A DNA stretch of 48,334 bases, taken from Thioalkalivibrio versutus. GTDB lineage: Bacteria > Pseudomonadota > Gammaproteobacteria > Ectothiorhodospirales > Ectothiorhodospiraceae. The position numbers and the translations under genes were made by a program. The notes under the pieces were generated by a model, which worked only from the letters and a program-made list of their open reading frames with translations, did not search any database and was not told the origin of the DNA. Positions 12,899 through 24,874 of the stretch are shown one piece after another; position 1 is the first letter of the stretch, and each line of letters opens with the position of its first letter. Location: assembly GCF_001999325.1 (NCBI RefSeq), contig NZ_MVAR01000008.1:1-48334 (forward strand), in the 5' to 3' direction.

Positions 12899-12929
12899 AA
12901 GGCCCCGCAGCGCAACGCCGCGGGGCCTT
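12899..12929 (-). terminator. Intrinsic terminator of the dsrE2 transcript
   Basis: A 10-bp stem (AAGGCCCCGC with GCGGGGCCTT) is followed on the minus strand by a broken T-run (TTTTTCGTTTTT). The T-run lies only on that side, so it mainly ends the minus-strand operon. Confidence 0.85.
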
Positions 12930-12956: not shown

Positions 12957-13427
12957 TCAGATGAACAGGCAGATATCGGACTCGCCGGCGAACTCGAAGA
13001 ACGCGGCGGCCCCGGCGTATTCCACGCCGTCGATGAATTCACTGGTGTCCATGTCGAACAGGTCCACCGTCATCTGGCAGGCAATCATGCGTACCTCGGC
13101 CTCCAGGCACAGCTCGCGCAGGTCGCCCAGATCGGAGACGCCCTTCGCCGCCATCTTTTTCTTCATCATCACGGTCATCATCTTCTGCATGCCCGGCAGG
13201 GCCTGCAGAAGCACCGGCATCGGCATCGGCATCGGCATGCCCGGATTGCCCAGCGAGGTCACCTGCAGATCCAGTTTCTTGCGCAGCAGTTGCAGGCCAT
13301 AGAAGGTAAAGAACACTTCGCAGTCGTAGCCCAGAGCGGCCGCCGTGGAAGCGAGGATGAAGGGCGGATAACCCCAGTCCAGGCTACCCTTCGTCGCAAT
13401 GATGGCCATCTTCTTTTGATCACTCAT
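12957..13427 (-). CDS. dsrE2: DsrE2-type sulfur-transfer protein
   Basis: 156 residues, with a strong Shine-Dalgarno (GGAGGAGAAAG) before the ATG at 13427. It belongs to the DsrE/DsrF/DrsH-like superfamily, DsrE2/COG2210 branch: the N-terminus reads AIIATKGSLDW, followed by FFTFYGLQLL and a Met/Pro-rich, positively charged middle (MPMPMPMP then MMKKKMAAKG). That middle is characteristic of membrane-associated DsrE2. Two cysteines are plausible sulfur carriers: one in LCLEAEV and the conserved one in ACQMTVDLF. In sulfur oxidisers DsrE2 receives persulfide from rhodanese and TusA and passes sulfane sulfur towards Dsr or Hdr-like oxidation, but neither rhd, tusA nor hdr genes are here. It is the last gene of the minus-strand operon and ends at a terminator. 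Confidence 0.82.
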   Translation of the reverse strand: MSDQKKMAIIATKGSLDWGYPPFILASTAAALGYDCEVFFTFYGLQLLRKKLDLQVTSLGNPGMPMPMPMPVLLQALPGMQKMMTVMMKKKMAAKGVSDLGDLRELCLEAEVRMIACQMTVDLFDMDTSEFIDGVEYAGAAAFFEFAGESDICLFI

Positions 13428-13532
13428 TTCTACTTTCTCCTCCAGTGGTAACAGGAATCGGATCCGCCACAGCCCCCTGCGCACGATCCGTCCCCAGTTG
13501 GTTAAAGCCCGTGGGTGTCGGGGCGGGACAGC

Positions 13533-13679
13533 CTACTGCTCCGACGCCTGACGCCCCCTGCGCCAGTCGCGGATCAGTGCACACCCGGCACAAACCCCCA
13601 GCGCTGCCATGCTGGCCCATACCGAGATGGGCACCAGGATCATGGCCAGCGCGAACATAAGCCACGCCAGTATGGTCAT
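13533..13679 (-). CDS. 48-residue single-span membrane peptide
   Basis: A short frame preceded by an excellent Shine-Dalgarno (GCAGGAGGAGAACG, then ATG). It begins MTILAWLMFALAM and continues with a hydrophobic stretch to about residue 36, including a Cys pair (VCAGCAL), then a basic cytosolic tail (RDWRRGRQASEQ). It would be an inner-membrane peptide, N-out or hairpin. It lies between the dynamin-like GTPase (102 bp upstream) and dsrE2 (105 bp downstream), all on the minus strand. The CxxC pair close to a sulfur-transfer gene makes a small redox or persulfide partner of DsrE2 conceivable, but that is speculation. I know of no named family for it. Confidence 0.65.
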   Translation of the reverse strand: MTILAWLMFALAMILVPISVWASMAALGVCAGCALIRDWRRGRQASEQ

Positions 13680-13683
13680 CGTT

Positions 13684-13760
13684 CTCCTCCTGCACAACAT
13701 TAGCGGCCGGTAACCGCGCCCGCTGGTCGTGCTGCTTGCTGCGAGCCGGCGCAGGAGGAG
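13684..13760 (-). promoter_or_regulatory. Leader hairpin that can mask a Shine-Dalgarno
   Basis: In the minus-strand mRNA CTCCTCCTGC (13760-13751) is a perfect 10-nt complement of GCAGGAGGAG (13693-13684), the ribosome site of the 48-residue peptide. The 57-nt interior is G+C-rich and contains its own short pairing (GCGG/CCGC). The arrangement could shut off translation until the upstream arm is engaged. Confidence 0.5.
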
Positions 13761-13781
13761 GCATCATGCCTGCCCCTACCC

Positions 13782-15347
13782 CTAGCGCCTCTCCGGCGCC
13801 TCCGGCTCGGCGTAATCGCGGGGCGCATCCGTGCCCGGCGTCGGGTCGGGGACCGGGGCTTCCGGCTCCTTCGGGTTGTAGACATCGCTGGCCGAGGCCC
13901 GCCCGCCCTGGCGCGAGACCGGACTGGCATCCACAAACTGGTTGTTCAGGCGCTGGATGTAGGCCTCGGCGCGGTCGCGCAACTGATGCAGGCGGCCGAT
14001 CATCCGCCGCCCCAGACCCAGCGGTGCACGCCCCATCATCGGGCGCCAGGGACGCGTGTTCTTCTCGAAGGCCGCGCGCCAGTTACCGGCGGGGGTCTCG
14101 GTCGGCAGCGTCCGCGCGATGCGGCGCGCCAGCCAGCGGCGATTGAAGAAGTGAATCCCGCCGAGCACGATGGCCAGCACCACGATGCCAAAGACAGTCA
14201 GCAACGGGCGCTCGCCCATGGACTGCCAGACGCTGCCATCGGTCCACGGGGCCACGCCACCGGTCCACTGATAGCCAATCAGACCCAGGATCACCGCGAC
14301 CACCGCGAACATCCCGGCGTCGAACTGCACGACACGGCGGCGCCAGCGCGCGAGCGCACGTTGCAGCGCCGGCATGACGTCCATCTCGATGGATTCGGCG
14401 ATCGCCTGCAGCGAGCCAAGGATCCGGTAGGAACGCGAGGAACTGATCTCCTGGATCTTGGCGTGGATCTCCTGACGGTCGCGCCGGGATTTCTCCTCGT
14501 AGCGCTCGCGCACCTGAGGATCGCCGATCTCGACCGCCGCACTCTCGTTGTACAGGCAGTAGAAGCGCCCGGTGGCATTGCCCTGGCGCACCACGGCGCG
14601 CTGCCAGGCGGAAACGACCTCTTCCAGGTTGTCCTCGCGCCAGGTGGTGTCGATCTGGTTAAGGATAAACACCAGTTTGGTGAAATCATTGCGCTCGGCG
14701 ACGCGATTGACCAGGTGCTCCAGGGTGTCGCGCATCGCGCCAGGTTCCGGGTGGCGGGCATCGAAGAACACCAGCACCAGGTCCGACAGATCGATGATGT
14801 GGTCGGTCAGCTGCAGGATCGTCGCGCGCTGCTCGTCGGCATCGAACCCGGGAGAGTCGATGATGATGCGCCCGCGCAGATGCTCCGCGCGCGCGGTCTT
14901 CATCGCCAGAAAATGATCCACCGTACGCCCGCCGCCGTCGGTGATGCGCTCGATCTCGTCGGATACGCGATAGAACGGGAAACGCGGATCGCCGTCCAGC
15001 GCGAGCCCCGGCAGCTCCTGCACGTGCTCGCTTCCGCCGTAGCTGATCACGGTGAACTTGTCGTCCACCGCCTGCGAACCGCTGCGCTGCACGGTGGTGC
15101 CCACGTATTCGTTGATGAAGGTGGACTTGCCGGCCGAGAACGTCCCCAGCATGGCGATCATCGGCCACCAGGAGATGGTGAAGGCGTAGGAGTCTTCGGT
15201 GGGATCCAGCAGACCGGCCGCATAGCCGACCCGGTCCAGATCACGGAAGGGGTCGACCACCCCTTTCAGGACCGGATTCTCTTCGGCAAGGCGGTCGCTG
15301 AGCAGCTTGAGCTGCTTGCGTACCCGAGGGCCAGGACGATTGAACAT
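13782..15347 (-). CDS. Membrane-anchored dynamin/EHD-like GTPase
   Basis: 521 residues. The GTPase motifs are clear: G1 GTFSAGKST (68-76), G3 DSPGF (about 166-170), G4 NQID (about 231-234). The region before G1 (VDPFRDLDRV, then WPMIAMLGTF) resembles EHD and bacterial dynamin-like proteins. Two transmembrane segments follow the G domain and helical stalk (about 338-360 and 380-400), then a Pro/Glu-rich disordered tail (PVPDPTPGTDAP). Dynamin relatives polymerise on membranes to bend, tether or sever them. It is preceded by GGAG and starts 27 bp after the coiled-coil membrane protein gene, inside the ParA-DUF302-dynamin-DsrE2 operon. Other known bacterial dynamins act in envelope repair or vesiculation; here the neighbours suggest a link to sulfur-globule handling, which is inference. 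Confidence 0.85.
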   Translation of the reverse strand: MFNRPGPRVRKQLKLLSDRLAEENPVLKGVVDPFRDLDRVGYAAGLLDPTEDSYAFTISWWPMIAMLGTFSAGKSTFINEYVGTTVQRSGSQAVDDKFTVISYGGSEHVQELPGLALDGDPRFPFYRVSDEIERITDGGGRTVDHFLAMKTARAEHLRGRIIIDSPGFDADEQRATILQLTDHIIDLSDLVLVFFDARHPEPGAMRDTLEHLVNRVAERNDFTKLVFILNQIDTTWREDNLEEVVSAWQRAVVRQGNATGRFYCLYNESAAVEIGDPQVRERYEEKSRRDRQEIHAKIQEISSSRSYRILGSLQAIAESIEMDVMPALQRALARWRRRVVQFDAGMFAVVAVILGLIGYQWTGGVAPWTDGSVWQSMGERPLLTVFGIVVLAIVLGGIHFFNRRWLARRIARTLPTETPAGNWRAAFEKNTRPWRPMMGRAPLGLGRRMIGRLHQLRDRAEAYIQRLNNQFVDASPVSRQGGRASASDVYNPKEPEAPVPDPTPGTDAPRDYAEPEAPERR

Positions 15348-15374
15348 GCGGACTCCGTCAGTCGAAACGCGTGA

Positions 15375-15896
15375 TCAGCGCGGGTAATACGGCCCCGGCG
15401 AACCCCGGACCGGACCGCTCTGATCGGTGAATGGGTTGAACATGTTCATCATACCCATGGGCGCCCCCACATTGCGATTCAGACTCCACATATCCTGTTG
15501 CATGCCCGTGATCGCGCCCGCCATCACGCTGGTATCCCGCGTCATCGAGCCGATATTGGCATCCATCGAGCGCGTATTGCCCGCGATCACCGCCACTTCC
15601 TCGTTCATTACCCGCATGGTGTTGTTGATGTCCGTCATCTGGTGGTCCATCGAGGCCATGTGCCCGGCGATAGTGGACATGTCGCGATCGACCACCTGGG
15701 TCATCTGGGCGATCTCCTGGGTCAACTGGCTGACATCCCGGGTCAGGCTGGTGATCAGCCAGAACCCGTAGATGGCCAGGACCACGAAGGCCAGCAAGGC
15801 GGCGTACACAATCAGCTCCACACGCCGGGAGCGGGCATCCGCCTTGTCCGCCTCGTCGCGGACCCTGTTGAAATCACTGTTGCTCTCGTCGCTCAT
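15375..15896 (-). CDS. Membrane-anchored coiled-coil protein, unknown function
   Basis: 173 residues: a charged cytosolic N-terminus, one transmembrane helix (about 27-50), then a long helical region (55-140) rich in Met, Thr, Asp and Asn with heptad-like spacing (TQEIAQMTQVVDRDMSTIA). The C-terminus is Pro/Gly/Met-rich and ends GPYYPR. The helix is probably periplasmic by the positive-inside rule (RSRRVE before the span). I do not recognise a named family. The Met-rich helical body and aromatic/Pro/Gly tail recall the secreted proteins encoded 2-4 kb upstream, and it lies 44 bp after the DUF302 gene and 27 bp before the dynamin gene. It could serve as a membrane tether or receptor; this is a guess from topology and position. 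Confidence 0.75.
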   Translation of the reverse strand: MSDESNSDFNRVRDEADKADARSRRVELIVYAALLAFVVLAIYGFWLITSLTRDVSQLTQEIAQMTQVVDRDMSTIAGHMASMDHQMTDINNTMRVMNEEVAVIAGNTRSMDANIGSMTRDTSVMAGAITGMQQDMWSLNRNVGAPMGMMNMFNPFTDQSGPVRGSPGPYYPR

Positions 15897-15940
15897 TGAA
15901 CGCCCTTGGTCGATGCACGGAAACGGATTCGCTACCCCCG

Positions 15941-16528
15941 TCAGAAGGCGCCGACGGCGGCGCGGTCAATGATTTCCTCCAGTGATTCCTTCACAAAAAT
16001 GGCCTGCTCGCGCAGATCCTCGGGCAGCGGGCGCCCTCCGTGGATCATCGGCTCCAGATCCAGCGTCATCAGCCACAGATTGCCCTCGGCATCTTCCTGC
16101 AGCACGATCCGGCACGGCAGATACGCAGCCATCGCCGGGCTGTGGCGAACCATCTGCGCGGCAATCGCCACATCACAGAACATATAGATCTTCAGGAACG
16201 GAAAGTCCTCCCCGGTAACGCTTCGTACCTCCTCCCCCATCGGCAATTCGCCGACGTTGCGGATATTCAGCTCGTTGGCCACCAGGCGCAGAATATCCTC
16301 GACCTCTTCGACCGCCAGGCCCGCGTCCACCTTGCGCTTGTAGACCATGGCCTCCGCGGCGTCGCCGGTCTCCAGCACCGTGCGGGCCATCTGCGAATAG
16401 ACCTTGGGCGCCTGGGAATCCAGCGAGCGGACCTGACCGAGGTAGGGCTCGAAAGCAAAAATGGCATACCCCACCCCAATCAGTGCCAGCAATCCGATCA
16501 CGACCAACGCATTGCGTATGAAGCGCAT
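15941..16528 (-). CDS. Membrane-anchored DUF302 protein
   Basis: 195 residues: an N-terminal transmembrane anchor (about 7-27), a short helical linker, then a DUF302 domain (about 95-180) with FLKIYMFCDVAIAAQMV and the family end YLPCRIVLQEDAEGNLWL followed by DLEPMIHGG. DUF302 domains form small alpha/beta dimers; their ligand is uncertain, and binding of thiols or metals has been suggested. Two Cys residues (FCDV, LPCR) are in the domain. DUF302 genes are frequent in sulfur-oxidiser genomes in my recollection. It has a good ribosome site (AGGAGAG) and lies 51 bp after parA, separated by a 20-bp palindrome. Confidence 0.85.
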   Translation of the reverse strand: MRFIRNALVVIGLLALIGVGYAIFAFEPYLGQVRSLDSQAPKVYSQMARTVLETGDAAEAMVYKRKVDAGLAVEEVEDILRLVANELNIRNVGELPMGEEVRSVTGEDFPFLKIYMFCDVAIAAQMVRHSPAMAAYLPCRIVLQEDAEGNLWLMTLDLEPMIHGGRPLPEDLREQAIFVKESLEEIIDRAAVGAF

Positions 16529-16552
16529 GAAGCTCTCCTGCTCGGTGCCCGC

Positions 16553-16572
16553 CGTCCGGTGATCACCGGACG
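16553..16572. repeat. 20-bp perfect palindrome between parA and the DUF302 gene
   Basis: CGTCCGGTGATCACCGGACG is identical to its reverse complement. It sits in the 51-bp gap between parA and the DUF302 gene. As RNA it could fold into an 8-bp stem with a GATC loop, but no T-run follows, so it is not a normal terminator. As DNA it could be a dimer-binding site, for example a parS-like centromere. Confidence 0.85.
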
Positions 16573-16579
16573 CGACACA

Positions 16580-17224
16580 TTATTGTTTCTTGCGGCGGTT
16601 GCGCCCGAACAGGGCTACAGCCAGGGCGTCCAGCTCGGCGGCGGCCTTGCCGCGGGGCTCCAGTTCGCGCACCGAGAGCCCTTCGCTGAAGGAACGGCGA
16701 AAGGCCATGCGCTGCTTCAGCCGCGGCTTCAGCAAGCGGACCCCCTCGATCTGCTGCAGCGCCTCGTGCGTCTCGTCGGTCTCGCGCACGGCCTGGTGCG
16801 TATCGGCACGATTGATGAATGCCAGGATCTCGGGACGATCACAAGACCCCCGTTGCTCCTGAATGCGCTGAACGAAGCGATAAGTCGACCAGACGTCCGC
16901 CTGGCTGGGCGGCACCGGGATCAGCACACGGTCGGCACCCTCCACCGCAGTCATCAGGGAGGCCATGTCCGACGCACCGACATCGATCAGCACCTCGTCG
17001 TAATCGCCCGTGCGGGAGCGGACGGCATCGAGATCACTGACCCCGTCCAGCGCGGGTTCGTAGCCTTCCTCGTGGCGCACCTCCAGCACATCGCTGAGGG
17101 TTCGCTGCGGATCCAGATCCACGGTCAGGGCGCGACGACGCCCCTCCAGCAACCACAGGGCCAGGTTAAAGGCCACGGTACTCTTGCCGGTACCACCTTT
17201 CAGATTGGCGACGACGGTCTGCAT
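16580..17224 (-). CDS. Orphan ParA/MinD-type ATPase
   Basis: 214 residues with the deviant Walker A KGGTGKST (about 9-16), Walker A' (VDLDPQRTL) and Walker B (EVLIDVGASD), followed by the helix-rich half with LIPVPPSQADVW. The start at 17224 follows GGAGAC; a frame extending to 17242 lacks a ribosome site. Short ParAs of this kind move cargoes over the nucleoid: plasmids, chemoreceptor clusters, or carboxysomes (McdA). No parB, origin or plasmid gene is nearby, so plasmid partition is unlikely. Its neighbours are secreted globule-like proteins, DUF302, coiled-coil and dynamin proteins. It is separated from the globule gene upstream by a terminator but runs into the DUF302 gene downstream. Cargo positioning is inferred. 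Confidence 0.9.
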   Translation of the reverse strand: MQTVVANLKGGTGKSTVAFNLALWLLEGRRRALTVDLDPQRTLSDVLEVRHEEGYEPALDGVSDLDAVRSRTGDYDEVLIDVGASDMASLMTAVEGADRVLIPVPPSQADVWSTYRFVQRIQEQRGSCDRPEILAFINRADTHQAVRETDETHEALQQIEGVRLLKPRLKQRMAFRRSFSEGLSVRELEPRGKAAAELDALAVALFGRNRRKKQ

Positions 17225-17242
17225 GGCGTCTCCTTCGAGCAT

Positions 17243-17279
17243 TGCGGATTGGCGGCTACGCGCAACCCACCAATCCGCA
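17243..17279. promoter_or_regulatory. 10-bp inverted repeat upstream of parA
   Basis: TGCGGATTGG (17243-17252) and CCAATCCGCA (17270-17279) are perfect inverted repeats with 17 bp between them, 19 bp upstream of the parA start. It could be an operator for autoregulation or a leader hairpin. The spacing places the arm centres about 27 bp apart, roughly 2.5 helical turns. Confidence 0.6.
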
Positions 17280-17287
17280 CGGCTCCG

Positions 17288-17321
17288 AAAAAAAGGGGCC
17301 TGCCCGACACCGGGCAGGCCC
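17288..17321 (-). terminator. Intrinsic terminator after the sulfur-globule-like gene
   Basis: An 11-bp stem (GGGCCTGCCCG with CGGGCAGGCCC, loop ACAC) is followed on the minus strand by seven T. It lies 15 bp after the stop of the globule-like gene and before parA, so the two can be expressed at very different levels. Confidence 0.9.
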
Positions 17322-17335
17322 GAACAGCGACGGGC

Positions 17336-17782
17336 TTAGTTGCCTTGGCCCTGCTGCTGCGGCATCTGACCCTGCGGGCCATAGCCCTGAGGACCGTAGC
17401 CCTGCGGACCGTAACCCGGACCGTAGCCGTAGCCCGGGCCGTAGCCATAACCCGGGTGGCCGTAACCCTGACCATAACCCCGGCCGTAGCCATCCCCATA
17501 GCCCTGACCGTAACCGTGGCCGCGACCACGACCACTGGCGGAGAAGTCAAAGTTACCGTCACCCATCATGTCGCCCATCATGTCGCCCATGCCGTAATTA
17601 CGACCGGAGCCGTAACCGGGGCCACCGAAGAACGGCATGCTCGGGCCATAGCCGTAGCCCGGGCCATAGGCGCCGGGGCCATACCCGTAGCCGGGGCCGC
17701 CCCACTGGGCGGAGGCCATCATCGGGGCGGCCAGGCCACCCAGGGAAACGGCGAGAACTGCTGCTTTGACCAACTTGTTCAT
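17336..17782 (-). CDS. Secreted Gly/Tyr-rich sulfur-globule-like protein
   Basis: 148 residues with a Sec signal peptide (core KAAVLAVSLGGLAAP, cleavage ASA-QW). The mature protein is almost entirely Gly, Tyr, Pro and Gln. A central block, DMMGDMMGDGNFDFSASGRG, is followed by GYGQGYGDGYGRGYGQGYG and PGYGYGPGYGPQGYGPQG repeats. Sulfur globule proteins of purple and colourless sulfur bacteria (SgpA/B/C) are secreted, Gly/Asn/Tyr-rich and contain comparable GDG-F-F-SG-GRG then GYG-repeat blocks; they coat periplasmic sulfur globules. A perfect AGGAGG precedes the ATG, and a strong terminator follows, as expected for an abundant structural protein. Other Gly/Tyr-rich secreted proteins exist, so the assignment rests on the central block and on the sulfur context. 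Confidence 0.75.
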   Translation of the reverse strand: MNKLVKAAVLAVSLGGLAAPMMASAQWGGPGYGYGPGAYGPGYGYGPSMPFFGGPGYGSGRNYGMGDMMGDMMGDGNFDFSASGRGRGHGYGQGYGDGYGRGYGQGYGHPGYGYGPGYGYGPGYGPQGYGPQGYGPQGQMPQQQGQGN

Positions 17783-17863
17783 GGTGCTACCTCCTGAAGG
17801 AGTCATGCCCTCAATTTGAATGCGTGCACGCGGGGAGGGCTTCTCGAATGCACGCCTTACTGG

Positions 17864-18304
17864 TCAGGGGAACGGGAAACCGCCCATCCCCCAGGGGAAG
17901 ACCGAAGACGGCCCGCCCATGCCCGGGTAACCGGACTGCCCCGGATACCCGTATGGATAGCCCCCCGGCATCCCGCCAGGGGTGTGGAACGACGGAGCAG
18001 CCGGTGTGCCGTACGGGTGTTGCGGCCCGTAACCGCGGGACGCCGGAGCGTGCTGCGGCGGGCCTGGCGCATCCCGCGATTCACCCCGCCGTGACGGGTC
18101 GTAATCGCGGTCCGGAAAACGCCCGCGCGGGCGTTCCGGGGCCGACCGCTGCACCTCCGGCGTACCGGAGGCCCAGGGGTTGTGGCGATCACTCGCCGCC
18201 AGGTCAGCGGCCGGCAACAGAAACCCCGTGGCCAGCAATACCCCGAGTATCGGGGCGTTTCTGACCCGCCTGCGTTTCAGTTGACCGGACTGCCTGCCCT
18301 GCAT
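17864..18304 (-). CDS. Secreted Pro/Gly/Tyr-rich protein
   Basis: 146 residues. A basic N-region (LKRRRVRN) and hydrophobic core (APILGVLLATGFLLP) form a signal peptide. The first half of the mature protein is charged and Pro-rich (DRHNPWASGTP, then RPRGRFPDRDYDPSRRG). The second half is Pro/Gly/Tyr-rich (PGGYPYGYPGQSGYPGMGG) and ends FPWGMGGFPFP. I do not recognise a family. It lies between two globule-like genes, 74 and 81 bp away, and shares their low-complexity aromatic style without their GDxxF block; it may be a minor envelope or adaptor protein of the same structure. I chose the ATG at 18304 because GGAGG lies 9 nt upstream. Confidence 0.65.
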   Translation of the reverse strand: MQGRQSGQLKRRRVRNAPILGVLLATGFLLPAADLAASDRHNPWASGTPEVQRSAPERPRGRFPDRDYDPSRRGESRDAPGPPQHAPASRGYGPQHPYGTPAAPSFHTPGGMPGGYPYGYPGQSGYPGMGGPSSVFPWGMGGFPFP

Positions 18305-18332
18305 GGCGAACTGCCTCCGTCTGACTTCCACT

Positions 18333-18356
18333 CCGACGGGCACCAGCGCCCGTCGG
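18333..18356 (-). repeat. 9-bp intergenic hairpin
   Basis: CCGACGGGC and GCCCGTCGG pair around a 6-nt loop in the gap between the two secreted-protein genes. No T-run follows on either strand. It could stabilise the 3' end of the upstream message or partly attenuate transcription. Confidence 0.5.
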
Positions 18357-18378
18357 CATGCGATCACCGATCCGCAGA

Positions 18379-19071
18379 TCAGTTGCCGCCCTCTTCCTGC
18401 ATGGATTCACGACGCTCCTGCATCATCTCCATGCGGCGCTCACGCTGGCGCTCCATCTCTTCCTCGTACGCCGCACGCCCGGCTTCCATCGCCTTCTGAC
18501 GCGCTTCCCGCATGGCTTCCATCTCTTCCATGCGCTCCTGGCGCTCGGCGTGCTGGGCCTGGATGCGCTCACGCATCTCTTCCGGCATGTCTTCCGGCAG
18601 GTTGTCCGGATCGAACTGCTGCATCTGGCCGTAGCCCTGACGCTGCTGCATGCCATAGCCCGGCTGCATCATGCCCGGATGGCCGAAACCACCCTGCTGC
18701 GGACCGGGGCCATACCCCGGGCCGTAGCCCGGACCGTAGCCCTGATGGCCGCGGCCATAGCCCTGGCCGTACCCATCACCGTGGCCGCGCCCGTAGCCCT
18801 GCCCCTGACTGCGCCCGGACATGCCGAAGCTGAAGTCACCGGAGCCTTCACGCTGCTGCATCATCCCGCCACCGGGATATGCGCCCATGCCGGAGCCGTA
18901 CGGGGCGTGCCCGTAGGGGCCGGGCACCGGGCCCTGCTGGCCCATCGCCGGACCCTGGCCGTAACCCTGATCCTGTTCCTGGGCCTGGGCGACGCCCAGG
19001 GCCAGTACGGATGCCACGGCGGCACTGGCCAGCGCGGTACCAATCATTCGGGAATTGAAACGCTTCTTCAT
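18379..19071 (-). CDS. Sulfur-globule-like protein with charged helical tail
   Basis: 230 residues: signal peptide (cleavage AQA-QE), a Gly/Tyr/Gln/Pro region, then GSGDFSFGMSGRSQGQGYG and GYG/GHG repeats that match the central block of the protein encoded at 17336-17782. The C-terminal ~80 residues change abruptly to a Met/Glu/Arg-rich helix (EEMRERIQAQHAERQERMEE, later RQRERRMEMMQERRESMQEE) likely to form a coiled coil. In effect an Sgp-like coat module is fused to a helical module. AGGAGG precedes the ATG at 19071, only 31 bp after the RND permease stop, so co-transcription with the efflux genes is likely. The tail may bind other coat proteins or the envelope. Confidence 0.72.
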   Translation of the reverse strand: MKKRFNSRMIGTALASAAVASVLALGVAQAQEQDQGYGQGPAMGQQGPVPGPYGHAPYGSGMGAYPGGGMMQQREGSGDFSFGMSGRSQGQGYGRGHGDGYGQGYGRGHQGYGPGYGPGYGPGPQQGGFGHPGMMQPGYGMQQRQGYGQMQQFDPDNLPEDMPEEMRERIQAQHAERQERMEEMEAMREARQKAMEAGRAAYEEEMERQRERRMEMMQERRESMQEEGGN

Positions 19072-19102: not shown

Positions 19103-22100
19103 TCACTTGAGTCGAATCCCACGCCGGGTGCGGCCCTTGCCGGATGTGCCCGGTTTGCCGCTCCCCTTGGGGGTGCTGCCGCTGTCCTTGCGGCCGGTCT
19201 TGCTGCTCGTGGTGCCGGTCTTGCTTGTCCCGCCGGCCTTCTTGTTGGATGCCGTCAACGCGCGCTTGTTCGCGCTCGCGCTGCCCGTTTTCCGGGTTCC
19301 GGTGCTCTTGATGGTGCTGCTTGCGCGTCCTTGCGTGGCGTCACCGGACACGGACGTGTCGCCGGAGGTCTTGCTCGCGGCTGCGGTGGGCTTGTCCTTC
19401 GCGCTTACCGAGGTGCCCGCTGGCGACTTCTTCGGAGTGTTCGTCCCGGCGGCATCGCCAGCACCCCGCGTGGAGGTCGCCTGCGCGGCACGGGACGCGG
19501 TCTTGGAAGGGGCCGGCTCTTTCGCGGTCCCCGCGGCGGAGTCGGGCTTCACAGCCTGGGTGCGGCTGGACGGCGCGGCACCGGCGTCCTGGGCTCCGGC
19601 ATTCGCGGTGGCCGGTGTGGAGGCCACGCGCTCTGGGGTGCCGGTCGCCTCAGGTGCCTGCGCAACAGGGCCCGACGGCTTCGAGTCAGCCGACGGGTTT
19701 TCCGAACGGGGCTGCGGAGTCGCCGCAGTCCCGCCGGAACCCGTGCCCGACGCGCCACCGCTCCCCGGGGCACCGCCCGTCGGCCCGCCAGGCCCGGCGG
19801 AGGGACCGCCCGATCCGCCGCTGGGCGGCGGGGGGCCGCCATCGCCATTGCGGCGGCGTTCAATGAAAGACCGAATCAGGCGCCCCAGGGCGAGCGCCAG
19901 ATCGCGCAGGCCCTCGATGAAAGCCACGACCAGGCACTTGAGATAAAGCCCCGCGTATTGCACGACCTGGGTGACCGGCCCGCCCTCGCGCGGGCCGAAC
20001 AGGTCATTCCCCTCGCCGGATGCCCCCGGAGACGCACCCTGGGTCGCGCTGGCCGTCACACCGGCATGCACAGCATGGCCATTGCCATTGCCACAGCCCG
20101 CCGTGGCCGCACCGTCCTCGTCCAGGCTGGTCGGGCAGAAGGCACGGCGGCCGGAGATGCAGCCCAGCGGGATCACCACCAAGGTCAGCAGGGTGGCCAC
20201 CACCGTGCCGAACATCAGCGAGATCGCCATGCCCTGGAAGATCGGATCGAACAGGATCACGCTGGAGCCGGCCAGCAGGGCCAGCGCGGTGATGATGATC
20301 GGACGGGTACGCGCCTGGCAGGCCAGGATCATCGCGTCGCGCACGTCGTGGCCCTCGTCCACCGCCTGGCGACCGAAGTCCACCAGCAGGATCGAGTTGC
20401 GGACAATAATCCCCGCGAGCGCGATAAAGCCGATCATCGAGGTCGCGGTGAATTCGGCGTTCATCAGCCAGTGGCCGGGAATAATGCCGATCAGGGTCAG
20501 CGGGATCGGGGCCATGATGATGCCCGGCAACACGAAGTTGCCGAACTCCCAGACCACCAGCATGTAGATCAGGATCAGCGCGATCGCGAAGGCGATCCCC
20601 ATGTCGCGGAAGGTCACGTACGTCACCGTCCACTCGCCGGCCCATTCGAAGGCGGTCGACCCATCATTGGGCGGCGGCCCCAGCCAGTGCGGCTGTACCT
20701 GGCTGCCATCCGGAAGACGGTAGTCCTCCAGCTGTTCCTGGACCTCCAGCATGCCGTACACCGGCGCGGCCAGACGCCCGACCACCTCGCCGGTCACGTA
20801 CTCCACCGGACGCAGGTTCTTGTGGTAAATCGGCTCGTCCTGCGGGCGCTGGACGAATTCGCCCAGCTCGGCCAGCGGGATCGACCCGCCCTGCCGGGTG
20901 GAGATCGGCAGCATCTCCAGCTGCCGGATGTCATTGCGCGTTGCCATCGGCAGACGCATCTCGATCAAATGCGGCTCGACCAGCGACTGCGCCTTTACAT
21001 CGCCCAGGATCTGCCCGCCGATCGCGGTCTCCAGGGTTCGATTGATGGTGTCCACGGTCACACCGCGGCGCAGCGCCTTGTCGCGATCCACATCGAAGTG
21101 CCAGACGTTGTGTGGCGCCTGCAGGAAGCTGTCCACATCGGCCACGTGCTCGGCACCGGCGAACATGCCCTCGAGATCGCGGGCTACAACGCGGCGGGTG
21201 GCAGCATCAGGGCCGTAGATCTCGGCGACAATCGACTGCAGCACCGGCGGACCCGGCGGCATCTCGACCACCTGGATGCGCGCGCCGGCCGCCTCGGCCA
21301 GCGGGGTCAGGCGTTCGCGCGCCTCGGTGGCAATATCGTGCGAGGTCCGGCTGCGGTCGCCCTTGTCCACCAGCTGTACCTGGATGTCCCCCTGCCAGGG
21401 TTCGTTGCGCAGGTAGTAGTGCCGCACCAGGCCGTTGAAATTGAACGGCGACGCGGTCCCGACGTAGGACTGCAGAGCCACCACCTCGTCCATCTCGCGC
21501 AGGGCGCTGGCCATGTCGTGGCTCAGCGTCGCGGTCTCGGTCAGGGCCGTGCCCTCGGGGAAGTTCACCATCACCTGGAACTCGGGCTTGTTATCCAGGG
21601 GCAGCATCTTCACGCGGACGTCCGTGGTCATGAACAGGCTGACCATCAGGAAGAAGATCACGATGACCGCGATCAGAAAGGCGTAGCCGCGCACCCGGTT
21701 GTCGGCCAGCCCCGGGATTACCGTACGGTAGAACCGCCCCAGCTTTTCCGCCTGGCGATGTTCCTTGTCGGTGGCCTTCTCCAGATACGCCATGCTCGGG
21801 CGCAGGCGCTGGGTGAGCCACGGGGTGAATACAAACGCCGCCACCAACGAGAACAGCATGGCCACGGACCCCAGCACCGGGATCGGCTGCATGTACGGGC
21901 CCATCATCCCGGAGACGAAACCCATCGGCAGCAGGGCCGCGATGACCGTGAAGGTGGCCAGGATGGTCGGGTTGCCGACCTCGCGCACCGCATCCACCGT
22001 GGTCTCGGTATCGATGCCGCGCTTCATCAGCCAGCGTCGGTAAATATTCTCCACCACCACGATGGCGTCATCGACCAGGATGCCAATGGAGAAGATCAGC

Positions 22101-23368
22101 GCAAACAGGCTGACGCGATCGATGGTGTAGCCCAGCAGCCACGCGCTGAACACAGTGAACAGGATCACCACCGGGATCACGATCAGCACCACGACCGCGG
22201 CACGAACCCCCAGGAACAGGCCCACCAGGATGGTCACCGCGAAGGTGGCGATGAACAGCTTGAAGAGCAGCTCGTTGACCTTCTCGTTGGCGGACTTGCC
22301 GTAGTTGCGCGAAACCGCCACCTCGACATTATCCGGGATCACGCTGCCCTTCAGACGCTCCAGGCGCTCGAGCACGTCGTTGGCGACGGTCACCCCGTTG
22401 CTGCCGGGCTTCTTGGCAATGGCCAGCGTGACCGCCGCGGCGCCTTCCGGTGCCGCATCCGGTTGGGGGGCTGCCGGACCGGAGTAGTGGCGCACGAACC
22501 GCTCCAGCTCGCCCGGGCCGTACGTCACCTCGGCCACATCGCGCAGATAGACCGGCTGGCCGTCGCTGACCGCAACCAGGAGTTGCTCGAGATCGGCGGC
22601 GCCGGTGAAGAAACGCCCGGTGTACACCGCAGTACTCAGCCCCCCGCTCTCGATGCGTCCTGCCGCGCCCTCGACATTCGCGGACTGCACGGCCTGGGCG
22701 ATCTGATCCAGGCTGATGTCGTAGCCCGCGAGGCGTTCCGGCAACACCTCGATGCGCAGGCGCTCCTCGCGTCCACTGACCACGAAGCTCTGGTTGGTGT
22801 CGGGGACCTCGTTCAGCTGCTGCTGTGCATCCAGTGCGATCTGGCGCAACAGGGCGTCGTCCACCTCATGCGACCAGAAGGTCAGGTTGAGCACCGGCAC
22901 GTCGTCCGCGCCCTTGACCTTGACCATGGGCTCGCTGACGCCGGGCGGCATCAGGTCGCGATTGGCGATCAGCTTGTCGTGCACCTTGACGATGGACGAC
23001 TCCATGTCCTCGCCAACGTCGAACTGCACGGTCACCATCGCCTCGCCTCGATGCGACGCGGAGTAGACGTTGTCCACCCCGGACAACTCGCTCATCAGCC
23101 GCTCCAGCGGCCGTGCCGCGAGGCTCGCCACCTGCTCGGAGGGCACGCCGGGGTAGGACACCATGATGTCCACCATCGGCACGGAGATCTGCGGGTCCTC
23201 CTGGCGCGGGGTGACCATCAGGCCGAGAATGCCGATCGCGATACTGGCGATCAGCAGCAGCGACGACAGCGGCGAATGAATAAAGGCCGCCGCCATGCGC
23301 CCGGCAATGCCGGGGTCGCCGTGTTTCTGCCGGAAACCGGTATCGGATTGTTTGTCGTCTTCGGCCAT
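19103..23368 (-). CDS. RND-family permease with long low-complexity C-terminal tail
   Basis: 1421 residues against about 1030-1080 for usual AcrB-type permeases. The core (1-1080) has TM1 (LLLIASIAIGILGLM), the two large periplasmic loops, the TM4 proton-relay Asp pair (GILVDDAIVVVENIY) and the C-terminal half with GIIVRNSILLVDF. After the last span comes a Gly-rich linker, then an extra amphipathic helix near 1125-1168 (LYLKCLVVAFIEGLRDLALA). About 250 residues of Gly/Pro- and then Ala/Ser/Thr/Lys-rich sequence follow, ending GKGRTRRGIRLK. The tail would be cytosolic and strongly basic. It follows its membrane-fusion partner by 130 bp; no outer-membrane channel gene is adjacent. Substrate unknown. 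Immediate coupling to the globule-like gene at 19071 suggests transport of a sulfur-related or coat-related molecule, which is inference. Confidence 0.92.
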   Translation of the reverse strand: MAEDDKQSDTGFRQKHGDPGIAGRMAAAFIHSPLSSLLLIASIAIGILGLMVTPRQEDPQISVPMVDIMVSYPGVPSEQVASLAARPLERLMSELSGVDNVYSASHRGEAMVTVQFDVGEDMESSIVKVHDKLIANRDLMPPGVSEPMVKVKGADDVPVLNLTFWSHEVDDALLRQIALDAQQQLNEVPDTNQSFVVSGREERLRIEVLPERLAGYDISLDQIAQAVQSANVEGAAGRIESGGLSTAVYTGRFFTGAADLEQLLVAVSDGQPVYLRDVAEVTYGPGELERFVRHYSGPAAPQPDAAPEGAAAVTLAIAKKPGSNGVTVANDVLERLERLKGSVIPDNVEVAVSRNYGKSANEKVNELLFKLFIATFAVTILVGLFLGVRAAVVVLIVIPVVILFTVFSAWLLGYTIDRVSLFALIFSIGILVDDAIVVVENIYRRWLMKRGIDTETTVDAVREVGNPTILATFTVIAALLPMGFVSGMMGPYMQPIPVLGSVAMLFSLVAAFVFTPWLTQRLRPSMAYLEKATDKEHRQAEKLGRFYRTVIPGLADNRVRGYAFLIAVIVIFFLMVSLFMTTDVRVKMLPLDNKPEFQVMVNFPEGTALTETATLSHDMASALREMDEVVALQSYVGTASPFNFNGLVRHYYLRNEPWQGDIQVQLVDKGDRSRTSHDIATEARERLTPLAEAAGARIQVVEMPPGPPVLQSIVAEIYGPDAATRRVVARDLEGMFAGAEHVADVDSFLQAPHNVWHFDVDRDKALRRGVTVDTINRTLETAIGGQILGDVKAQSLVEPHLIEMRLPMATRNDIRQLEMLPISTRQGGSIPLAELGEFVQRPQDEPIYHKNLRPVEYVTGEVVGRLAAPVYGMLEVQEQLEDYRLPDGSQVQPHWLGPPPNDGSTAFEWAGEWTVTYVTFRDMGIAFAIALILIYMLVVWEFGNFVLPGIIMAPIPLTLIGIIPGHWLMNAEFTATSMIGFIALAGIIVRNSILLVDFGRQAVDEGHDVRDAMILACQARTRPIIITALALLAGSSVILFDPIFQGMAISLMFGTVVATLLTLVVIPLGCISGRRAFCPTSLDEDGAATAGCGNGNGHAVHAGVTASATQGASPGASGEGNDLFGPREGGPVTQVVQYAGLYLKCLVVAFIEGLRDLALALGRLIRSFIERRRNGDGGPPPPSGGSGGPSAGPGGPTGGAPGSGGASGTGSGGTAATPQPRSENPSADSKPSGPVAQAPEATGTPERVASTPATANAGAQDAGAAPSSRTQAVKPDSAAGTAKEPAPSKTASRAAQATSTRGAGDAAGTNTPKKSPAGTSVSAKDKPTAAASKTSGDTSVSGDATQGRASSTIKSTGTRKTGSASANKRALTASNKKAGGTSKTGTTSSKTGRKDSGSTPKGSGKPGTSGKGRTRRGIRLK

Positions 23369-23498: not shown

Positions 23499-24707
23499 CT
23501 ACATACGGCTCCAGGGGTCCGTGACACCGTCGCGGCGTCCGACGCCCGAATCCGGGGAACCGCGCCCCACGGGCTGGCCGGAACGCACACCCGCGCCCGG
23601 TCGGGCCAGGATCTGCATGCCCGGCTCCAGCCCGGAGGTCACCACCACCTGGTCGCCGCGTCCGCCACCCAGGCGCACCATGCGCACGCGGACGTGGCCC
23701 TCGCCATCAAGCACGGCCACGCGCGGCAAGGCACCGCCCGGGATCAATGCCGAACGCGGAATCACGACCCGGTTACCGGAAAGCTCGCCCTGCGGCAGAT
23801 GCACCGCCGCATGCATGCCCGGGCCACCGCGCACGCCCTGCGGCAGGTCGAACTTGACCGTGACGGTGTGGCGCTGCGGGTCGGCCAGGGGGAAGATCCG
23901 GGCGACCCGGGCCTCCACTTCGTCACCGGTATCCAGCCGCACCTGTACGTAGTCGTCTTCCTGCAGGCTGCTCACCAGCCGCACCGGCACCTGCGCCTCG
24001 ACGCGCAGGAATTCGACATGGCCGAAGCTCACCAGCGGCTGACCGGGCTGGACGGTATCGCCCTCTTCCACGTGCTTGTGCATCACCAGGCCATCGAAGG
24101 GCGCCTCGGACCGGGTGTCGCGGATGGCCGCGTCCAGTTCGGTGACCCGGGCCCGGGCCTGCTCCCAGCGCGCCTGCGCCTGATCCACGCCGATGTAGCG
24201 GGAATAGAGATCCGTACGCCGGTCCAGCGCGGGATCGCCCATGCCCATGACCTGGCCCATCGGCTGGGTGAACATCTGGTCGAACATCGACGGCACGCCC
24301 ATGCCCGGCATCTGGCCAATACTGCGCGACTGCGGCGAGACCATCTCGCGGCCGTACTGCATCTGGGCCTCGCGGATCGCGGCCTCGGCGGTGCGCATCT
24401 CGGCCTCGGCCGCCTGGCGCTGGGCGCGCAGCCGGTCGTCGCTAATCGCGACCAGCACCGCCCCCTGTTCGAAGCGATCGCCCTCGGCGCCCGCCACATC
24501 CACCACGCGTCCCGCGGACTGCGCGGTCAGGGTGACTTCGCGATAGGGGACCACGGTGCCACTAACGGTCTGGGTGGCAGCCTGATCCGGCTCCACCGTG
24601 AGGATCAGACCAGCGGCGTGGGCCGCCGAGATGCCGAACAGCGGCAGGGCCAGTGCGGTACCCAGGAGGGTGCGGGCCAGGAGGCGTCGGGAAACTCGCG
24701 CAAACAT
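23499..24707 (-). CDS. RND periplasmic membrane-fusion (adaptor) protein
   Basis: 402 residues with signal peptide (RTLLGTALALPLFGISAAHA). The lipoyl half-motifs (VVPYREVTLTAQSAGRVVDV and APFDGLVMHKHVEEGDTV) flank the helical hairpin, and beta-barrel and membrane-proximal domains follow. The hairpin carries an unusual Met/Gly/Pro-rich insertion near residues 120-150 (SIGQMPGMGVPSMFDQMF, then QPMGQVMGMGD), absent from standard AcrA-like adaptors; such Met runs can bind soft metals or associate with hydrophobic surfaces. I chose the ATG at 24707, which opens the signal peptide and follows AGGTAGGA; the longer frame adds a non-secretory leader. It is the first gene downstream of the sigma-54 promoter. 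Confidence 0.9.
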   Translation of the reverse strand: MFARVSRRLLARTLLGTALALPLFGISAAHAAGLILTVEPDQAATQTVSGTVVPYREVTLTAQSAGRVVDVAGAEGDRFEQGAVLVAISDDRLRAQRQAAEAEMRTAEAAIREAQMQYGREMVSPQSRSIGQMPGMGVPSMFDQMFTQPMGQVMGMGDPALDRRTDLYSRYIGVDQAQARWEQARARVTELDAAIRDTRSEAPFDGLVMHKHVEEGDTVQPGQPLVSFGHVEFLRVEAQVPVRLVSSLQEDDYVQVRLDTGDEVEARVARIFPLADPQRHTVTVKFDLPQGVRGGPGMHAAVHLPQGELSGNRVVIPRSALIPGGALPRVAVLDGEGHVRVRMVRLGGGRGDQVVVTSGLEPGMQILARPGAGVRSGQPVGRGSPDSGVGRRDGVTDPWSRM

Positions 24708-24874
24708 GATCGTCCTACCTCGCGCCGAATGTCGCGATGAAAGAGGGCGCCCGCACCCGGCGCACCTGCGCGCACGGGACCGAGGGCAGGGAATGGACCG
24801 CACTCGACCGGACGCCAGGGAAACTGGCGGCGAGGCCCGTCCGGCGACCCGGGTGAGCCGGCTGAAAACCGCAG

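Follow-up and report, generated by a model that had tools for sequence, protein, structure and literature searches.

A ParA, coiled-coil and RND gene set that accompanies sulfur globule protein genes in Thioalkalivibrio versutus and other Gammaproteobacteria, and its possible role in globule positioning

We analyzed a 48,334-nucleotide stretch of DNA from Thioalkalivibrio versutus (contig NZ_MVAR01000008.1; hereafter the window), in which genes for a ParA-type ATPase, a membrane coiled-coil protein and a dynamin lie beside a gene for a sulfur globule protein (SGP). The original prediction, made from the sequence, had read positions 12957-19071 as a locus that builds, tethers and spaces periplasmic sulfur globules. 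Eleven minus-strand genes running from 24803 to 12957 encode, in order, a periplasmic adaptor (MFP), an RND pump, three low-complexity proteins of secreted type, ParA, a DUF302 protein, the coiled-coil protein, dynamin, a 48-residue protein and DsrE2. All the minus-strand genes that had been predicted (the three low-complexity proteins, ParA, DUF302, coiled-coil, dynamin and DsrE2) were recovered by profile matches or reading. The predicted extent was too short, as the set reaches upstream through the RND inner-membrane pump (19103-23368) to its adaptor (23499-24803). Intergenic distances within the set are 27-130 bp, with 31 bp between the pump and the first secreted gene. The gaps of 27-105 bp given previously hold if the 48-residue gene (13533-13679), which had gone unnamed, is counted; as first given they do not, since the dynamin-DsrE2 interval that contains this gene measures 354 bp.

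The adaptor matches HlyD_D23/HlyD_3 in Pfam, is syntenic in the genus and lies beside the core genes in other families. The pump (ACR_tran, 513 bits) carries a long C-terminal tail of ~350 low-complexity residues rich in Ala, Ser, Thr, Gly and Lys past the ACR_tran domain. The three low-complexity proteins, whose secretion was judged by eye from their N-termini, are an SGP-like Gly/Gln/Met/Glu-rich protein with a charged C-terminus (18379-19071), a Pro/Gly/Arg-rich protein characterized by composition and syntenic relatives (17864-18304) and a sulfur globule protein with a signal peptide (17336-17782). They are followed by ParA (16580-17242), the DUF302 protein with an N-terminal hydrophobic segment (15941-16528; 54.7 bits, cut-off 23), the coiled-coil protein with one transmembrane segment (15375-15896; hereafter cc), a GTPase of the dynamin superfamily whose C-terminal helical region is hydrophobic (13782-15347; Dynamin_N 54.8 bits, cut-off 27), the hydrophobic 48-residue protein with two cysteines and the sulfur carrier DsrE2 (12957-13427; NF047629 288.5 bits, equivalog cut-off 210). 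A strong intrinsic-terminator-like hairpin on the minus strand separates the SGP gene from ParA (17296-17321) and the hairpin search placed a second one after DsrE2 (12899-12929), which indicates a gene set rather than one simple operon. Between 12800 and 25000 there was no match to a sigma-70-type promoter, a consensus that tells little for this organism.

We assessed the SGP assignment of the three low-complexity proteins. The 17336-17782 protein (47% Gly plus Tyr) passes the Pfam SGP family PF17228 with 31.8 bits against a cut-off of 26.7, and in the genome-contig search it scored, with its neighbours, 26.9 bits. The 18379-19071 protein stayed below the cut-off (14.8 bits) and the 17864-18304 protein had no match at all, so the predicted Sgp-like trio is supported by Pfam for one member. 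The predicted shared block GDxxF-x3-SGR has no match; the block present in two of the secreted proteins, including that at 18379-19071, is G[DN]FxFxxSGR (GDFSFGMSGR and GNFDFSASGR); none of 20,000 shuffles of the residues produced this block in the two proteins together. PF17228 matched 0/14 control genomes and 3/219 soxB-negative genomes. Some of the SGP-negative calls used below are misses: a PF17228 protein at 40 bits in one distant locus (L239, genome G371) was overlooked by the genome search, and genome G017 has a syntenic SGP gene (L032) despite its negative call. Among the cc-only genomes with other module members beside cc (see below), G548 encodes a 42% Gly plus Tyr protein with an SGR block and no Pfam match, and G391 encodes several Gly/Tyr-rich proteins. 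In eight stretches, the protein encoded first past RND often shows, behind a signal-like start, a Pro-rich block of GPY/F type; these proteins may form a coat family of their own. Pattern counts of the GPY/F and SGR motifs were noisy (stop-to-stop frames, one match inside cc) and were not used as counts.

We surveyed the order to which T. versutus belongs by searching for dynamin, which was found in 29 of 47 genomes; 26 dynamin loci were fetched. ParA sits between the SGP-like genes and dynamin in 16 of these 26, on which grounds a chance neighbourhood was rejected. Among the other ten, four end at a contig end before the point where ParA would lie (L045, L047, L049 and L051), five have no ParA there and one holds dynamin only. 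Loci L038-L042 retain an SGP-like gene, dynamin, the 48-residue gene and DsrE2, with no SgpB, ParA, DUF302 or cc there; the two that were read (L038 and L040) also carry a Pro/Gln-rich gene and one for a TPR-like membrane protein. DUF302 is missing from L043 and L044; a TPR-like gene takes its place in L043, and L046 has both. Within the genus, identities range over 61-96% for ParA, 70-98% for dynamin, 52-98% for cc, 48-97% for DUF302 and 32-98% for the secreted proteins, and the 48-residue protein is 78-100% identical in 25 of the 26 fetched loci. Among the matches listed, the best named dynamin is that of Thioalkalivibrio sp. ALMg11 (98% identical), a metagenome-assembled genome named T. paradoxus holds the full set, and T. 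thiocyanoxidans ARh2 holds, of the modelled proteins, only dynamin, the 48-residue protein and DsrE2. In the part of the literature seen, T. paradoxus is described as storing sulfur intracellularly, unlike other Ectothiorhodospiraceae (PMC5328954), and Thioalkalivibrio is listed, as a genus, among organisms with enveloped globules (PMC10386293). In Thiorhodospira sibirica, dynamin stands in another context, after lepA-, lepB- and rnc-like genes and near DsrE-family and lipoyl-protein-like genes (names given by eye), and ParA and cc are adjacent elsewhere in that genome.

Among the members tested, cc is the closest follower of SGP. We tabulated genomes as both / SGP only / cc only / neither. 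For 369 evenly drawn Gammaproteobacteria, cc at E <=1e-15 gave 53/3/22/291 (Fisher 2e-42; as the genomes are related, this and the other Fisher values overstate the count of independent events), which places cc in 53/56 SGP genomes vs 22/313 others, and relaxing the threshold to E <=1e-6 gave 53/3/29/284. Counted by family label, 27 families had both, none had SGP only and 10 had cc only. Concordance was found in 154 of 155 Chromatiales genomes (142/1/0/12), where ten cc matches are weak (E 3.5e-9 to 8.3e-27) and the SGP-negative genomes possibly represent few lineages; accepting cc only at E <=1e-30 changed the table to 132/11/0/12 (p 5e-12). In the order of T. versutus, 46 of 47 genomes were concordant (27/0/1/19), including four weak matches among the 28 for cc (G028, G029, G030 and G043; E about 1e-22 to 1e-23). 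Four Thioalkalivibrio genomes (G016, G019, G025 and G040) have neither cc nor a Pfam SGP and keep dynamin, and a fifth (G024), with a dynamin locus of the same type, carries its SGP-like, ParA and cc genes as a group at another place. We counted this joint absence and joint presence for the cc-SGP link. Carriage of soxB alone was rejected as the cause of the link because cc tracks SGP within the soxB carriers (51/2/16/81, p 3e-23, for the 150 genomes with soxB at E <=1e-100; 156 at 1e-30). The two genes are also partly neighbours: an SGP place lies <=8 kb from cc in at least 13 of the 53 genomes with both, where ~0.7 are expected. Of the 60 cc loci with the best scores, 37 have ParA no more than ~1.5 kb away, and the number rises to 44 when dynamin is accepted as an alternative neighbour.

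Dynamin was rejected as a marker of the module, being weaker than cc (SGP in 48/87 dynamin genomes vs 53/75 cc genomes; the dynamin sample comprised 360 genomes and the SGP and cc lists 369, the nine extra not being removed). Among the matches listed, 48 dynamin genomes fall outside Thioalkalivibrio and 23 of them have SGP; SGP is present in 17/18 of those with ParA, cc or a module-type RND/MFP at the dynamin locus vs 6/30 others (p 4e-7). These counts leave out of the module three loci without SGP, L071, L104 and L116, whose RND/MFP matches are weak and generic (26-183 bits); including them gives 17/21 vs 6/27 (p 1e-4). Three of the six SGP-bearing "other" genomes have cc elsewhere (G062, G067 and G052, the last being identical to G046, judging by where its SGP matches lie). 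The comparative search therefore returned, for the ParA/cc core, the reverse of a ParA-dynamin set found mainly where SGP is missing.

A scan of genome contigs with the dynamin alignment yielded at least 80 loci, and we fetched 40 stretches around cc, from 20 cc-only genomes and 20 others. Other members are present in 32 of the 40 (the module-context stretches), RND in 27 and ParA (>200 bits) in 23 of these 32. The core that recurs elsewhere consists of MFP, RND, low-complexity secreted proteins, DUF4412, ParA, a TPR membrane protein and cc, often with dynamin. In Sedimenticola, Thiohalobacter, Chromatium, Thiorhodovibrio, Thiomicrorhabdus and others, dynamin lies <=10 kb from some or all of MFP, RND, ParA and cc; in Chromatium and Sedimenticola the dynamin and core groups are divergent. 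The Chromatium okenii dynamin (L125, 9950 onward) reads in separate pieces, by decay or assembly error. In the Campylobacterota and Desulfovibrio-type stretches among the matches listed, dynamin stands without the core, and weak generic RND/MFP matches occur only in L104 and L116. In the stretches read, DUF302 recurs less widely than RND/MFP, DUF4412 and TPR, none of which the original prediction named. The DUF4412, membrane TPR and SCP2-like proteins recur in loci outside the genus. In seven stretches, a short SCP2-like gene, named by eye (the L082 copy is without a Pfam match), precedes MFP. Three genomes of one family (f103; G343, G459 and G558) have SCP2-like, MFP, RND, TPR and cc genes, with DUF4412 in G343 and G459, and no ParA or Gly/Tyr-rich protein there. 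A distant family also has DUF302 flanked by TPR and cc (L239, 7806-8255), the arrangement of some Thioalkalivibrio, so DUF302 may have joined the set early. DsrE2, predicted as a member of the locus, holds its place in Thioalkalivibrio and in the relative at L077 and is missing from the other stretches seen. In a genome presumed to be Allochromatium vinosum (G118), an 18-kb stretch (L242) encodes MFP, RND, a 222-residue protein, DUF4412, ParA and cc, without dynamin, and the two PF17228 places of that genome lie apart from this set. Alvin_1739, which has a ParA-type annotation, was rejected as the ParA of this set, as its neighbours differ in the part of the source seen (PMC11267869).

The ParA of the window has the Walker A motif KGGTGKS and matches AAA_31 (51.3 bits) and CbiA (46 bits), which places it in the ParA/MinD superfamily; ParF is its best PDB sequence match. 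It did not reach the cut-off of the ParA family partition ATPase NF041546 (138 of 180 bits). The genome has six further ParA/MinD-type matches, and the neighbours of four of these, from which the names used here were assigned, suggest roles with carboxysome, chemotaxis, chromosome and flagellum. Module-type ParA above 200 bits was found at 107 loci (some genomes duplicated), from which we picked 31 to build a tree together with the six paralogues. The 31 form one clade with a bootstrap of 100, joined with the genome's own McdA-like copy at 99; the support of the module node was low in the re-rooted FastTree tree, and the cited bootstraps come from a separate tree. On this basis we rejected the window ParA as one of the six other copies. 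It also does not group with McdA beside carboxysome genes, in a tree that contains one McdA-like sequence. A study of Halothiobacillus matched such ATPases to their cargoes starting from gene neighbourhoods, as the part seen describes (PMC10241942).

We examined the cc and dynamin proteins in more detail. In cc, a short N-terminus that includes a basic pair leads into a single transmembrane segment with a conserved YGF, followed by a Met-rich coiled coil and a conserved C-terminus. The basic pair stands at the membrane in 10/11 aligned sequences, and we read the topology from sequence as probably N-in. Modelling of cc gave a single long helix (pTM 0.23). The dynamin model, built with 13 sequences, has pLDDT 74 and pTM 0.64; its best fold matches are EHD4, IniA and BDLP (E 1.3e-11 to 8.5e-10), and its PDB sequence matches are EHD4 and EHD2.

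The co-occurrence of cc and the ParA/RND core with SGP genes extends across many families, and the genes are partly adjacent. We consider it likely that the cc/ParA/RND module serves sulfur globules; the link is well supported by the SGP counts of dynamin genomes with and without module members at the locus. That the gene set in the window is an instance of a widespread module devoted to periplasmic globules, working in the manner set out here, we regard as an even prospect. SGP-like proteins would coat the globule in the periplasm. The cc protein would span the inner membrane, together with the TPR and DUF302 membrane proteins in loci that have them, and such linkers could contact the coat or its assembly site outside and ParA inside. 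In loci that encode it, ParA might work from the nucleoid to space, anchor or distribute the globules, or the sites of their assembly, along the membrane. Shaping of the membrane there may fall to the EHD/BDLP-like dynamin, a hydrophobic component could be supplied or cleared by the RND/MFP pump together with DUF4412, and DsrE2 might take up sulfur on the cytosolic side in Thioalkalivibrio; these roles of dynamin, pump, DUF302 and DsrE2 we infer. Positioning by ParA through membrane linkers is the best single candidate mechanism and a plausible one. The specific claim that a ParA-type ATPase positions or partitions periplasmic globules across the inner membrane, by way of coiled-coil and TPR linkers and with dynamin at the attachment site, and does so widely in globule-forming Gammaproteobacteria, including Allochromatium and Chromatium, is put forward tentatively.

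Several observations weigh against this interpretation. ParA was not found in nine of the 32 module-context stretches (L221, L226, L229, L233, L234, L235, L254, L255 and L256), nor in a Thiohalobacter stretch running from MFP to dynamin (L092) or a shorter one (L089), counts that refer to the stretches themselves. ParA is thus inconstant in the module, which argues against it as the module's heart unless those genomes hold it elsewhere, and we lowered our confidence in ParA positioning, and in the interpretation as a whole, accordingly. The four Thioalkalivibrio genomes without cc have dynamin loci without ParA. Dynamin is often found without SGP (39/87 genomes), DsrE2 is local, and SUP05 bacteria are reported, in the part of the source seen, to have sgp genes and no dynamin (PMC6509183). 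Of the original prediction, the link to globules is well supported; the parts it gave to dynamin, DsrE2 and ParA are not. Ten family labels have cc and no Pfam SGP. For the 22 cc-only genomes, 20 stretches were fetched (not G417 and G563); other members lie beside cc in 12 and cc is alone in 8, some of them short. The lone relatives are perhaps a solitary paralogue with another job, and two such genomes (G298 and G434) have a second cc adjoining dynamin. Known ParA partners have a basic disordered N-terminus, according to the part of the study seen (PMC10241942), and that of cc is net acidic in 10/11 aligned sequences, its basic pair at the membrane notwithstanding. Finally, globules appear randomly placed in many species, as stated in the part seen of PMC10386293.

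We weighed four other explanations against ParA positioning of globules. In one, RND/MFP, DUF4412 and the SCP2-like protein form an envelope transport machine that exports or recycles a hydrophobic compound (lipid, polysulfane or coat precursor) in globule formers, and ParA and cc place the transporter rather than the globule. RND is present in 27 of the 32 module-context stretches and ParA in 23, the pump, TPR and cc genes of family f103 stand there with no ParA, and an SCP2-like gene precedes MFP in L082, L095, L100, L221 and L243; the inconstancy of ParA raised our estimate of this explanation. Against it, low-complexity coat-like genes lie between the pump and ParA/cc in many loci, an arrangement with which a joint role is compatible, and cc tracks SGP closely. 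We judge it unlikely, though the likeliest of the four. It is less likely still that the core serves general sulfur oxidation and follows SGP since both mark sulfur oxidizers: soxB is carried by 67/75 cc genomes, and cc occurs without a Pfam SGP in 16 soxB genomes, but 83/150 soxB genomes lack cc and the association with SGP persists within soxB carriers.

The remaining two explanations concern dynamin and the secreted proteins. ParA, cc and dynamin could organize membrane or envelope growth around large inclusions, as in division or invagination, with no contact with the globule. The wide occurrence of dynamin without SGP and the resemblance of its modelled fold to the membrane-remodelling EHD, IniA and BDLP would fit such a role; dynamin, however, follows SGP more loosely than cc does, and we think this improbable. 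The Gly/Tyr-rich proteins could also be unrelated surface proteins in an accidental neighbourhood, since PF17228 is a low-complexity family and the 18379-19071 protein falls below its cut-off. The position of ParA between SGP-like genes and dynamin in 16/26 loci and the near absence of PF17228 from control and soxB-negative genomes make this very improbable.

Our literature search, mainly of open-access sources and including interpolated A. vinosum gene numbers, turned up no account of sulfur globules being served by a system of ParA or dynamin type. The globule literature found covers, in the parts seen, coat proteins only, and the module would address how globules are built, placed and shared out. 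Its ATPase, linker, GTPase and pump give named genes for deletion in a genetically accessible purple sulfur bacterium. If the reading is right, cc would be a second marker of intracellular sulfur storage in genome surveys, independent of low-complexity SGP matches, and a new cargo and a trans-membrane grip would be added to the ParA/MinD systems.

We compared the module with known systems. SgpA and SgpB of A. vinosum resemble the 17336-17782 protein, which passes PF17228, is Gly/Tyr-rich and is secreted by eye; the window gene lies beside ParA and cc, whereas the PF17228 places of the presumed A. vinosum genome lie elsewhere. SgpD of A. vinosum, described in the part seen of PMC10386293 and compared by description only, is a globule envelope protein with a proposed coiled coil and an exporter gene next door, features that recall cc and the module. 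It differs in its cleavable signal peptide and nearly Chromatiaceae-only distribution, whereas cc is predicted from sequence to be membrane-anchored. The EHD ATPases, IniA and BDLP are the best fold matches of the module dynamin, which by Dynamin_N and its predicted fold belongs to their superfamily, at 14-19% identity and TM-scores of 0.28-0.45 over the query. ParC, FlhG and Soj/ParA share the ParA/MinD superfamily with the module ParA and are separate copies in the same genome, named from their neighbours. A further parallel is McdA/McdB, with a ParA-type ATPase, an McdA-like copy that is nearest among the genome's own paralogues (99) and an autotroph inclusion as proposed cargo. The module ParA nevertheless forms a separate clade (100), the genome keeps its McdA-like gene at a separate locus (L261), and the module's candidate partner would span the membrane to reach a cargo proposed to be periplasmic.

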